This document shows positions 8,249-24,223 of a stretch of 64,000 nucleotides of DNA, one piece after another. Position 1 is the stretch's first letter. Every line of letters starts with the position of its first letter. The position numbers were made by a program, and so were the translations under genes. This stretch comes from Vibrio hyugaensis (lineage in GTDB: Bacteria > Pseudomonadota > Gammaproteobacteria > Enterobacterales > Vibrionaceae): NCBI RefSeq assembly GCF_002906655.1, contig NZ_CP025795.1:620001-684000 (forward strand), read 5' to 3'. The notes beneath the pieces were generated by a model that was given only the letters and a program-made list of their open reading frames with translations, searched no databases and was not told the DNA's origin.

Positions 8249-8623
8249 TGAAGCGACATTATTGGGTAGCGGGTATAATGTTTCTCCATCAAGAGTGAGA
8301 AACAAGCAATGTCCTGATATCGAGCATTAGTTTTGTAACAACTATGCGAATGATACTCCCAATTTTAGATTAAGAGATTAAATTTTATTTTATTAAGTGA
8401 TTGATTTTAAGGTAAATAAAATTTAATGAAGAAATGCATATCTATTATTTTTACATGGTGTATAGTGTCGCCATCTCAAACGGTGAGTTATTGATAATAT
8501 ATTTAGTTCAAGATCTTCTCAGTTTTTTCGATTAAATTCGTCATATTTATCCTGCGATACCTTATTCTTTATTCCTTATTTAGTAGCTTTCTTTTTAACT
8601 CAATCAATGTATCGAGATATATT
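8249..8623 (+). other. AT-rich leader region of the cold-shock gene
   Basis: About 375 bases without an ORF. CspA-family genes usually carry a long structured 5' untranslated RNA, and this stretch is the right size and place for one; the transcription start is not visible. Confidence 0.4.
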
Positions 8624-8836
8624 ATGTCAAATAAAACAACTGGCTCAGTAAAATGGTTTAACGAATCTAAAGGTTTTGGATTTATCACTCCTGATAACGG
8701 CGGTTCTGACCTATTTGTTCACTTCAAATCAATTGTTAGTGAAGGCTTCAAAACATTATCTGAAGGCCAAAAGGTTTCTTTTATTGTTGAGCAAGGTAAC
8801 AAAGGTCCTCAAGCGGGTAACGTTACGTTAGTGTAA
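8624..8836 (+). CDS. CspA-family cold-shock protein
   Basis: A 70-residue single-domain cold-shock protein, an RNA chaperone that binds single-stranded nucleic acid. RNP1-type motif KGFGFITP is near residues 16-23 and RNP2-type DLFVHF near 30-35; the start [13 protein letters not shown] is diagnostic. It differs from the second copy at 23690-23899 at about one residue in four and retains all core aromatic residues. A strong terminator follows. Long AT-rich upstream DNA suggests leader-mediated cold control. Which paralogue name applies cannot be told from sequence alone. Confidence 0.92.
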
Positions 8837-8845
8837 GATATTTTA

Positions 8846-8877
8846 AAAAGGTCTCTTCTGTAGAGGAGACTTTTTTA
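8846..8877 (+). terminator. Terminator after first cold-shock gene
   Basis: GTCTC...GGAGAC stem with a run of T directly downstream of the stop codon. Confidence 0.75.
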
Positions 8878-21512: not shown

Positions 21513-22517
21513 TTAGTGATTTTCTAGGTAGTGCACGACTTGCGTGCAGTACTTCGCTTTCATTTCTTCACTGATGAAACTAGCGTTAATGGCATTGATC
21601 GTGAACTGAGCAATTTCTTGTTTCGTCATGGCATGAGCATCACTTACCGCCATAAAGTTATCCGTCATATAGCCGCCAAAATATGCTGGGTCATCGGAGT
21701 TTATGGTGACCGCAACGCCTTTACGCAGTAATTCAACAATGTTGTGTTGTTCCATTTGATCAAATACACACAGTTTGATGTTCGACAGCGGACAGACCGT
21801 TAGTGGCATTTGGGTCTCAATTAATGCTTCCACCAAAGAAGCATCTTCCACACAGCGTACGCCATGGTCGACGCGGCTTACACCAAGCATCTCTAGCGCA
21901 TCAACAATGTTTTGAGCTGGGCCTTCCTCTCCGGCATGAGCAACCGTCAGTAAGCCCGCCTCTTTCGCTTGTTGAAAAGCGCGTTTGAATTTCTCTGGTG
22001 GATGACCAAGTTCTGAAGAATCTAAACCAACGCCAATGATTTTGTCTTGATGTTTCAAGATAGATTGCAGCGTTTCAATCGCGCTTTCTTCAGATAAGTG
22101 GCGTAAGAAACAAGCAATGATTTGTGAGGTGATACCGAGCTTCTCTTGCCCGTCTTGCATGGCGCGATGAATGCCGCGGATGACGATATCGAATTCGATA
22201 CCGCGGTCGGTGTGCGTTTGTGGGTCGAAAAAGATTTCAGTATGAATGACGTTGTCGGCTTTACAGCGTTCTAGATATGCCCAAGTCAAATCGTAGAAGT
22301 CTTGCTCGGTACGCAGCGCGTTTGCACCTTGGTAGTAAATATCTAGGAAAGATTGTAAATCTTCGAACTCGTAAGCCTTGCGCAGTGCTTGCGGAGATTC
22401 ATAAGGAATGTCGATGTTGTTGCGTTGTGCTAGCTCAAACAACAATTCTGGTTCTAACGAACCTTCGATATGTAAATGTAGCTCTACTTTTGGAAGACCT
22501 TGAATAAATGCATTCAT
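21513..22517 (-). CDS. add: Adenine deaminase (adenosine-deaminase superfamily, type 2), riboswitch-controlled
   Basis: 334 residues with the metal-hydrolase core of the adenosine deaminase superfamily: HLHIEG with His14 and His16, HAGEEG with His194 and Glu197, His218, and SDDP with Asp275/Asp276. The forms VELHLHIEGSLEPELLF and DDPAYFGGYM are characteristic of the adenine deaminase branch (yeast Aah1, Pseudomonas and Streptomyces enzymes) rather than of classical adenosine deaminase, so conversion of adenine to hypoxanthine is expected. In Vibrio genomes the gene is usually called add. GGGAG lies 7 bases before the ATG. An adenine-type purine riboswitch and a PurR-like box lie upstream; sensing free adenine fits an adenine-using enzyme. 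Confidence 0.88.
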   Translation of the reverse strand: MNAFIQGLPKVELHLHIEGSLEPELLFELAQRNNIDIPYESPQALRKAYEFEDLQSFLDIYYQGANALRTEQDFYDLTWAYLERCKADNVIHTEIFFDPQTHTDRGIEFDIVIRGIHRAMQDGQEKLGITSQIIACFLRHLSEESAIETLQSILKHQDKIIGVGLDSSELGHPPEKFKRAFQQAKEAGLLTVAHAGEEGPAQNIVDALEMLGVSRVDHGVRCVEDASLVEALIETQMPLTVCPLSNIKLCVFDQMEQHNIVELLRKGVAVTINSDDPAYFGGYMTDNFMAVSDAHAMTKQEIAQFTINAINASFISEEMKAKYCTQVVHYLENH

Positions 22518-22598
22518 AATAAACTCCCACTTTTTCTTATGGTTGTTGTGGATGCAGTTACTCTAAGAATAGGTATAGATTGGAAAAAATCGAACGCC

Positions 22599-22641
22599 AT
22601 TACAAAGAGTAAGATCCACAGTGATCTCAACTCTTCGTAAT
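22599..22641 (-). promoter_or_regulatory. Alternative stem of the add riboswitch (expression platform)
   Basis: ATTACGAAGAGT pairs with ACTCTTTGTAAT, extended by GATC/GATC nearer the loop. The 5' arm includes the aptamer's P1 3' strand, so this stem and the ligand-bound aptamer exclude each other. A T6 run comes about nine bases after the stem, making it a possible but imperfect terminator. Confidence 0.6.
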
Positions 22642-22699
22642 CAACACTTTAAGGGTGCTGGTAGAGACCCCCAAACCATATCATTGGGGTTATACGAAG
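22633..22699 (-). ncRNA. Adenine riboswitch aptamer
   Basis: Read on the minus strand the 67 bases match the purine aptamer consensus: P1 CTTCGTA/TACGAAG, TATAA, P2 arms CCCCAA/TTGGGG enclosing TGATATGG, GTCTCTACC between P2 and P3, then a P3 hairpin CAGCAC/GTGTTG and TGATTACG. The base that chooses between guanine (C) and adenine (T) at the position called 74 is T in GATTACG, so adenine is the ligand. It is closely similar to the V. vulnificus add aptamer. The start codon is about 115 bases downstream. Confidence 0.93.
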
Positions 22700-22717
22700 C
22701 AAACGGTTGCGATTATA
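22697..22717 (-). promoter_or_regulatory. Promoter -10 of add overlapped by a PurR-like box
   Basis: On the minus strand a consensus TATAAT (plus-strand 22712-22717) lies 13 bases before the aptamer. Immediately downstream AAGCAAACGGTTGCGA (22697-22712) is a near-match to the PurR operator core GCAAACGTTTGC, covering the expected transcription start. The -35 is weak. PurR binding here is predicted, not shown. Confidence 0.6.
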
Positions 22718-23036
22718 CGCAAAAAATTGGGGTTGGCTAGCGCTGCTAGAAAAGGATTTGTGGTTGTGAAATGAAGAAGAAGGTGGGTTTTATAAACTTT
22801 ATTGAAGCCATTTCGTCGCGGGGTGTTTCGGTTCCAGCACACACCTAGCTGAGAATCGAGCATTCAGTGGCTAATACTGAATGACACCTTGCGAGAATTT
22901 TGGCGTTTAATATCAAGTTTACTGTGCGTTGCTCATTGTGAACTGAGAAGGGGTGGCGATACCTTGCACATCGATATAGTAAATAGATAAGAATGATGAG
23001 AAGAGTATGGAGGGACTTCATTCATTGGTTTAAACA

Positions 23037-23609: not shown

Positions 23610-23650
23610 CTTAGTGTTAAGTCTGAGGAATTTTTTGAAGGGGGGAGAGT

Positions 23651-23678
23651 TTGGTGCAGCAAGGAGATGCTGCACCAA
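23651..23678. other. Perfect 11-bp hairpin after second cold-shock gene
   Basis: TTGGTGCAGCA-aggaga-TGCTGCACCAA; it lies 12 bases after the cold-shock stop codon. No U-tract follows on the minus strand (C-rich instead), so it may stabilise the 3' end or end transcription inefficiently. Confidence 0.6.
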
Positions 23679-23689
23679 GAAAAGCTATC

Positions 23690-23899
23690 TTATAGAGGAG
23701 TAACTTCAGTCGCTTGAGGACCTTTTTTACCGTCTTCTACATTGAAGCTTACTTTCTGACCTTCAGTCAAAGTTTTGAAACCGTCAGAAACGATAGCGTT
23801 GAAGTGTACGAATACATCTTGGCCGCCGTTGTCTTGAGATAGGAAACCAAAACCTTTAGTTTCGTTAAACCATTTTACTGAACCAGTTACTTTAGACAT
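23690..23899 (-). CDS. CspA-family cold-shock protein (second copy)
   Basis: 69 residues, [19 protein letters not shown], with RNP1-like KGFGFLSQ and RNP2-like DVFVHF. It is a paralogue of the 8624-8836 protein and should likewise act as a cytoplasmic RNA chaperone. AGAGG lies 6 bases before the ATG. Around 320 gene-free bases upstream can hold the long leader usual for cold-induced csp genes. Confidence 0.92.
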
Positions 23900-24223
23900 A
23901 AAAACCTCTGAATTTAAACAATAATATACGAGTTGTAGTGGATCTTTTTTAAGCTATTGAATGTGCAATCAAGAGGAAGTTTTACGCAGGTGTCTGAATT
24001 GAGGGATTCAAGAATTTACTGAGAGGGAACTTAAACTAAATGTAGCATTAACAGCTCTCTTCTAAGAGCCAGCCATCACTATACAGCTTGTTTGAAAAAT
24101 AGCTACCTTTATTTTTCAATTATTTTTGTTCGAAAAAATCGATGGAGTAGAACAAATCCACTTACTCATGATTTTCTCTCGTCCTTTCTACAATAAATCC
24201 ATATCAATAAGGGAGACAAGATT
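23900..24223. other. Divergent region: csp leader and pirin promoter
   Basis: 324 bases without ORF. The left part is the likely 5' leader of the minus-strand cold-shock gene; no defined cold box or riboswitch was recognised. Confidence 0.4.

Follow-up and report, generated by a model that had tools for sequence, protein, structure and literature searches.

Adenine switches the pbuE riboswitch of B. subtilis ON, and the hairpin that competes with P1 in its leader is a terminator. RNA biophysics uses the add riboswitch of Vibrio vulnificus as a standard model, and the gene behind it has been named both ways: the available text of PMC5847336 calls it an adenosine deaminase, whereas that of PMC8191784 and PMC9561414 calls it an adenine deaminase.

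Here we describe a purine riboswitch ahead of a deaminase gene of Vibrio hyugaensis, within a window of 64,000 nucleotides (contig NZ_CP025795.1, positions 620,001 to 684,000) to which all coordinates below refer (Table 1). The riboswitch resembles pbuE as a predicted adenine ON switch with a hairpin competing with P1. It is like V. vulnificus add, as far as the accessible portions of PMC5847336 and PMC8191784 describe that system, in its U-type purine aptamer, its deaminase-superfamily gene and, probably, its translational ON output. It differs in that the V. vulnificus leader is short, with a P1 3′ strand directly complementary to the start region, and precedes a gene of another family (27% identical). 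Aptamers of this class, enzymes of this family and the combination of the two are already of known kinds. In the literature searched, which covered few subscription journals, we found no description of the relay, of the division into two families with two platforms, or of the PurR overlap presented here.

An adenine-type aptamer precedes the deaminase gene

A sequence-only reading of the window had claimed a complete purine aptamer in the minus-strand leader of the gene at 21513-22517, with the T of GATTACG as an adenine-type specificity base. The covariance-model search bore out both points: the full RF00167 model (1-102) matched at 22618-22717 (minus strand) with a score of 75.3 bits (E 1.5e-11; gathering score, 37), and the alignment has T/U at the specificity position. 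This was the sole RF00167 match reported for the 5.6 Mb genome (two contigs). On sequence criteria, the aptamer ahead of the deaminase gene is an adenine-type purine riboswitch. Folding of the whole leader gave a z of -2.35, with 3 of 200 shuffles equally good. The window also holds two cspA thermoregulator leaders (RF01766), at 23648-24073 (minus strand) and 8470-8877 (plus strand), one of them some 0.9 kb upstream of the riboswitch.

Table 1. Features of the riboswitch locus, in window coordinates
Feature	Coordinates	Strand	Basis or remark
-10 element TATAAT, TAGCCA 16 nt upstream	22712..22717	minus	promoter consensus scan, 10/12 matches
PurR-type box, CGCAACCGTTTGC	22699..22711	minus	between the -10 element and P1, overlaps the 5′ edge of P1
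Purine aptamer core, P1-P2-P3	22632..22700	minus	RF00167 match, P1-P2-P3 above gathering cutoff
P1 strands	5′ strand 22700-22693, 3′ strand 22639-22632	minus	RF00167 alignment
Specificity base U (adenine type), GA-T-TACG	22640	minus	RF00167 alignment
Segment A, P1 3′ strand and extension, GATTACGAAGAGTTGAGATC	22623..22642	minus	pairs with the P1 5′ strand (aptamer) or with B (unconstrained fold)
Segment B, GTGGATCTTACTCTTTGTAAT	22599..22619	minus	pairs with A or C
Segment C, AGAGTAACTGCATCCAC	22548..22564	minus	pairs with B (UUACUCU/AGAGUAA, GUGGAU/AUCCAC); start-region pairing proposed
Segment D, Shine-Dalgarno-like GTGGGAG and start codon ATG	22515..22530	minus	C:D swap test, family level
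Putative adenine deaminase gene, PA0148 type, 334 aa, intact ORF	21513..22517	minus	NF006850, PF00962, PDB 3ou8, tree

The gene product is predicted to be a PA0148-type adenine deaminase

The protein encoded at 21513-22517 belongs to Pfam family PF00962 and is named adenosine deaminase by two NCBIfam models, NF006850 (558.6 bits) and TIGR01430. It carries LHIEGSLEPE and DDPAYFGGY, the motif set from which an adenine deaminase had been proposed, and its top PDB matches were 3ou8, 3pan, 3pao and 3pbm (435.7 bits for 3ou8), followed by 3rys (361.6 bits); Ada chains that we take to come from Salmonella and V. cholerae reached 127.8 and 122.5 bits, respectively. Identity was 59% to the 3ou8 protein and 50% to 3rys, versus 24-26% to three Ada proteins. 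A phylogeny with reference deaminases (19 rows, midpoint-rooted) agreed with the proposal, a single 100/100 branch setting the window enzyme, together with 3ou8 and 3rys, apart from the Ada side. The PA0148-type adenine deaminase of 3ou8, 3pan, 3pao and 3pbm is of the same family as the window enzyme, with HxH[IL]EG and DDPAYFGGY common to both. We take 3ou8 to be PA0148 of P. aeruginosa, and PA0148 to be UniProt entry Q9I6Y4. This P. aeruginosa enzyme, Q9I6Y4, is used as an adenine deaminase in the available part of PMC13316717. The prediction that the window gene encodes an adenine deaminase of the PA0148 type is well founded, and the name adenosine deaminase (NF006850) for this family would mislead pathway reconstruction.

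Aptamer type agrees with gene type at most of the fetched Vibrionaceae loci

RF00167 was matched in 199 of 329 Vibrionaceae genomes. From the genome match lists we fetched 263 purine-riboswitch loci and classified the downstream genes; searches over 40 genomes used stricter filters, and weaker RF00167 matches may be absent from this set. A U-type aptamer preceded a gene of the adenine-deaminase family at 126 loci and one of a second deaminase family (HLDG type) at 32, a C-type aptamer preceded an NCS2-type permease at 95 (one permease was tested by profile, PF00860), and divergent aptamers at nine loci were classed as other. The specificity base was T at all 158 deaminase loci fetched and C at 95 of 96 permease loci, the remaining one (L250) having been aligned on the wrong strand and reading GACTA by eye. 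The base agrees with the gene type at the fetched loci, bar L250 and the nine divergent loci, although base calls of low-scoring aptamers (for example L210, L249 and L318) are uncertain. With the window included, IEG was found in 127 of 127 adenine-deaminase-family proteins behind leaders and DDPAYFGGY in 115, the other 12 being without the motif or cut short. Both kinds of riboswitch-associated deaminase occurred together in at least four genomes (G080, G134, G198 and G253).

The sequence-only reading had gone further, suggesting that Vibrio genes named add after this riboswitch may often be adenine deaminases. This extension appears half right: it would hold for most of the fetched loci, with 126 of the 158 U-type deaminase loci in the adenine-deaminase family under the NCBIfam name adenosine deaminase, but not for the namesake, the V. 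vulnificus archetype, whose gene is of the HLDG family.

The nearest named relatives by window protein were Vibrio owensii, V. jasicida and V. rotiferianus (90-93%). Among the 80 named loci nearest to the window protein, an aptamer at the gathering threshold accompanied 23 (16 of 20, 7 of 20 and 0 of 40, in order), and the carriers include Photobacterium, Moritella and one Kiloniella. The last 40 of these 80 loci, with no purine riboswitch at that threshold, comprise PA0148-type relatives that include Pseudomonas and most other distant relatives. The Kiloniella laminariae locus (L039), outside Vibrionaceae, has the aptamer, the B:C pairing described below and a 69% identical enzyme, which suggests transfer of the whole riboswitch-enzyme unit. 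Two adenine-deaminase paralogues were seen in Vibrio crassostreae (L012 and L033) and in Photobacterium arenosum (L019 and L044), in each case one with a riboswitch and the other without one at the gathering threshold.

The V. vulnificus archetype is probably an adenosine deaminase

The V. vulnificus add construct printed in the available text of PMC5847336 matches three of the fetched loci exactly (L187, L189 and L190), and the genes of all three are of the HLDG-type family, the L187 protein beginning MNYFDLPKIDLHCHLDG. This protein shows 31-32% identity with Ada proteins, 25% with the 3ou8 protein and 27% with the window enzyme, and its family lies on the Ada side of the 100/100 branch in the midpoint-rooted tree. 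L087, which is 77% identical to L187, scored 168-172 bits against Ada chains; its scores against 3rys and 3ou8 were 134 and 119. In place of IEG and DDPAYFGGY, the HLDG-type proteins have LDG (31 of 32) and TDNR (30 of 32). A PA0148-type gene was not found in the L187, L189 and L190 genomes.

Over the 329 genomes, canonical Add was present in 189, the V. vulnificus type in 118 and both in 7 (Fisher p 1.6e-50, relatedness ignored). Canonical Add was called at a best E below 1e-140, with G030, G037 and G100 (middling scores) counted as without it, and the V. vulnificus type at an identity of at least 60%; both lists were read off by hand. Read most simply, this distribution has the V. vulnificus type standing in for canonical Add, in which case adenosine deaminase would probably be the right name there. 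Since only 7 of the 118 genomes with the V. vulnificus type have canonical Add too, the add archetype is probably an adenosine deaminase, as it is usually named, and the adenine-deaminase name in the available text of PMC8191784 and PMC9561414 is probably wrong on this point. Judged by sequence, the two names come apart: the archetype sits with adenosine-deaminase-type enzymes, and the larger Vibrionaceae set with adenine deaminase, where the ligand would be the substrate. At two loci, G167:C3:1034019-1034997 (L085) and G186:C79:48601-49577, the V. vulnificus-type deaminase was split in two pieces.

The leader contains helices that compete for segment B

Downstream of P1, the leader sequence contains two competing helices, A:B and B:C. 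In the window, the A:B hairpin was computed at -19.1 kcal/mol (mean -18.0 over 124 leaders) and B:C at -15.4 kcal/mol, for which 7 of 1000 shuffles were equally good; C:D was no better than shuffles (342 of 1000 as good). Without constraint, the window leader folded into A:B with a paired start, and with the aptamer out of play it folded into B:C.

These helices were assessed at family level by swapping segments among 47 representative leaders, with the window added by hand and relatedness not fully removed. Mean energies of own versus swapped pairings were -18.8 versus -15.5 for A:B, -16.2 versus -11.6 for B with the downstream segment and -13.6 versus -10.8 for the downstream segment with D, with 0 of 5000 permutations for each of the three helices. 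The own pairing bettered the row median in 39, 43 and 39 of 47 rows, respectively, and the own partner ranked first in only 4, 6 and 2. From the swap and shuffle tests, 3 of the 127 leaders were dropped: L158 and L279 for distance, and L212 for having no B motif. B:C beat shuffles (at most 5 of 100 as good) in 39 of the 47 representatives and C:D in 14, and the B:C stretch overlapped the stretch that pairs best with the start region in 37. Equally good shuffles for B:C numbered 1, 1 and 0 of 300 in Moritella L040 and L042 and Kiloniella L039, and 132 of 300 in L035 (Vibrio), where the pairing was no better than shuffles; for C:D, the counts were 24 (L040), 16 (L042), 34 (L039) and 47 (L035) of 300.

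The cost of opening the start region was compared between the ligand-free and the aptamer-sequestered state in 147 distinct leaders (119 adenine-deaminase and 28 HLDG type), none over 300 nt. For the 119 adenine-deaminase leaders, the difference averaged +2.53 kcal/mol, against +0.56 for shuffles; it was positive in 101 and above all 12 own shuffles in 55. The window runs opposite, at 8.65 ligand-free and 9.53 sequestered (about -0.87).

Within clades, alignments A2 and A3 keep the helices well, and A1 does so for A:B and B:C; two-sided changes are few. Over 35 leaders of the window's clade, the main A:B helix was 97% paired and B:C 92.5%, with covariation not above column shuffles. Neither state of A1 exceeded column shuffles, its C:D as drawn being 53-86% paired, and no two-sided change was found in B:C of A2. 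A3, which comprises 14 of the 30 leaders of its group (the other 16 are unaligned), scored higher for covariation than most column shuffles (7 and 8 of 500). Two of its leaders, L132 and L208, have B, C and D altered together, from GATTAA/TTAATC/GATTAA to GATGAA/TTCATC/GATGAA; L097 has an altered D without a matching C. The between-clade swap test is the stronger evidence for the predicted pairings, compared with clade covariation.

A candidate leader peptide (ATG at 22600, 28 codons, stop overlapping the gene start) was rejected: read by eye, its ATG is absent in L129 and L153 of the same clade and L146 has an early stop, and no Shine-Dalgarno sequence was seen before the ATG. In L158, an insert of about 1 kb separates the aptamer from segment B; it is flanked by a repeat of GGTTTAGAT and looks transposon-like by eye, with inverted repeats at its ends.

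A PurR-type box lies between the -10 element and P1

The promoter match of the window is weak alone, shuffles yielding 0.9 such sites per region; in 46 of the 127 adenine-deaminase leaders, TATAAT stood upstream of P1 at no more than about 50 nt. The pattern CGCAANCGTTTNC had 18 matches at 16 distinct sites in the V. hyugaensis genome, against 14 for a reversed-pattern control, so that the count alone is not enriched. Eleven of the other 15 sites adjoin purT, purB, folD, prs, glyA, purE, purM, cvpA (below the NCBIfam cutoff), a nucleosidase gene, fhs and pyrC, and a 12th adjoins an NCS2-like permease gene named by eye; at the last three are a serine/threonine-transporter-like gene, an OmpA-like gene and a gene for a protein without a family match.

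We used ANGCAANCGNTTNCNT as what we take to be the PurR box consensus. Of the 127 adenine-deaminase leaders, 61 had an upstream box with no more than two mismatches to it, at least 42 of these at the window's position, as did 77 of 95 C-type permease leaders (for example L293 and L291); none of the 32 V. vulnificus-type leaders had one, a further difference from the add system. The 3′ half of the window box coincides with P1, a region that is constrained anyway. Since the count is not enriched and the 3′ half lies within P1, the case for PurR rests on the gene list and the 5′ half. An operator-like PurR-type box stands at the promoter of the deaminase gene. The likeness to the PurR regulon of gamma-proteobacteria is that, in this genome, such a box stands before purE, purM, purT, purB and others, as it does before the deaminase gene; what sets the window apart is that its predicted PurR site accompanies an adenine riboswitch and that the gene concerned serves salvage. 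In E. coli, the corepressors of PurR are hypoxanthine and guanine.

Proposed mechanism and alternative platforms

We consider it likely that an adenine riboswitch induces a PA0148-type adenine deaminase in response to the enzyme's substrate, acting through a translational relay and with PurR probably co-repressing. The enzyme would convert adenine to hypoxanthine. Without adenine, A and B would form a long hairpin, leaving C available to mask the ribosome-binding site and the start. With adenine bound, A, the 3′ strand of P1, would be kept inside the aptamer; B would then be free to capture C, the start region would open and translation would go up (an ON switch). PurR with hypoxanthine or guanine would probably lower transcription via the promoter box, and an adenine ON switch together with PurR repression would have the gene made when adenine is high and hypoxanthine and guanine are low. 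The aptamer, its U base, the enzyme family and the competing A:B and B:C helices are legible in the sequence; we infer that C covers the start in the window leader, that translation is the output, and that the ligand binds, the enzyme is active and PurR binds. With somewhat less assurance, we favour a broader view in which two non-orthologous Vibrionaceae deaminases would share one aptamer class but be run by two machines, a two-segment one for the adenosine type and, for adenine deaminase, a four-segment relay with a PurR-type box ahead of it in 61 of the 127 leaders, in which the substrate would induce translation and the product side would repress transcription.

A transcriptional platform, in which the A:B hairpin and a U-run would make a terminator that adenine disrupts, as in B. 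subtilis pbuE, seems unlikely. The hairpin of pbuE is a terminator, but 112 of 124 leaders here are without a T-run of five after the hairpin, and the consensus scan gave no terminator-like site within the platform, its only minus-strand match (22722-22707) lying at the promoter; the downstream B:C pairing, moreover, would be left without a role. On the scan and the T-run count, we rejected a terminator as the general platform. Some attenuation of transcription may nevertheless occur, given the run of six T about 10 nt after the window's A:B hairpin, the 12 of 124 leaders with a T-run of at least five within 22 nt after B, and the Moritella leader L042, which has seven T close to the hairpin.

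Still less probable is a platform of the V. vulnificus add type, with two segments and the P1 3′ strand pairing directly with the ribosome-binding site. The distance from specificity base to start has a median of 112 nt in the 127 adenine-deaminase leaders (123 nt in the window) versus 49 nt in the 32 V. vulnificus-type leaders, and the mean energies computed for direct A:D pairing are -2.6 kcal/mol for 125 adenine-deaminase leaders and -7.4 for the 32 HLDG-type ones; in the unconstrained folds of adenine-deaminase leaders shown, A pairs with B instead. What such a platform has on its side is the same aptamer class, likely the same ON logic and, in the available text of PMC8191784, PMC5847336 and PMC8342710, a Shine-Dalgarno sequence that is sequestered without adenine. 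We give slightly less weight again to an enzyme that is an adenosine deaminase or has dual activity, so that ligand and substrate would differ: the names given by NF006850 and TIGR01430 point that way, against the 59% identity to the 3ou8 protein and the motifs that both proteins carry, and the genome has a separate Ada (L002) that is 87% identical to V. cholerae Ada. For the preferred translational relay, the 118 distinct adenine-deaminase leaders, with their relay-like platform and some compensatory changes, would offer a test bed for wiring an aptamer to a distant start codon.

Divergent aptamers at other Vibrionaceae loci

Several RF00167 matches were divergent, with CTACA or CTACG in place of the usual CTACC and an altered J3/1 (L227, L297, L300, L303, L305, L314, L331 and L333); matches of the CTACA/CTACG type were also seen at L249, L318 and L319. 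These aptamers may possibly have a variant ligand. A Na+ nucleoside transporter gene (PF07662, PF01773) lies behind the aptamers of L227 and L314; by eye, a permease gene follows those of L249 and L318 and a nucleosidase-like gene that of L319.
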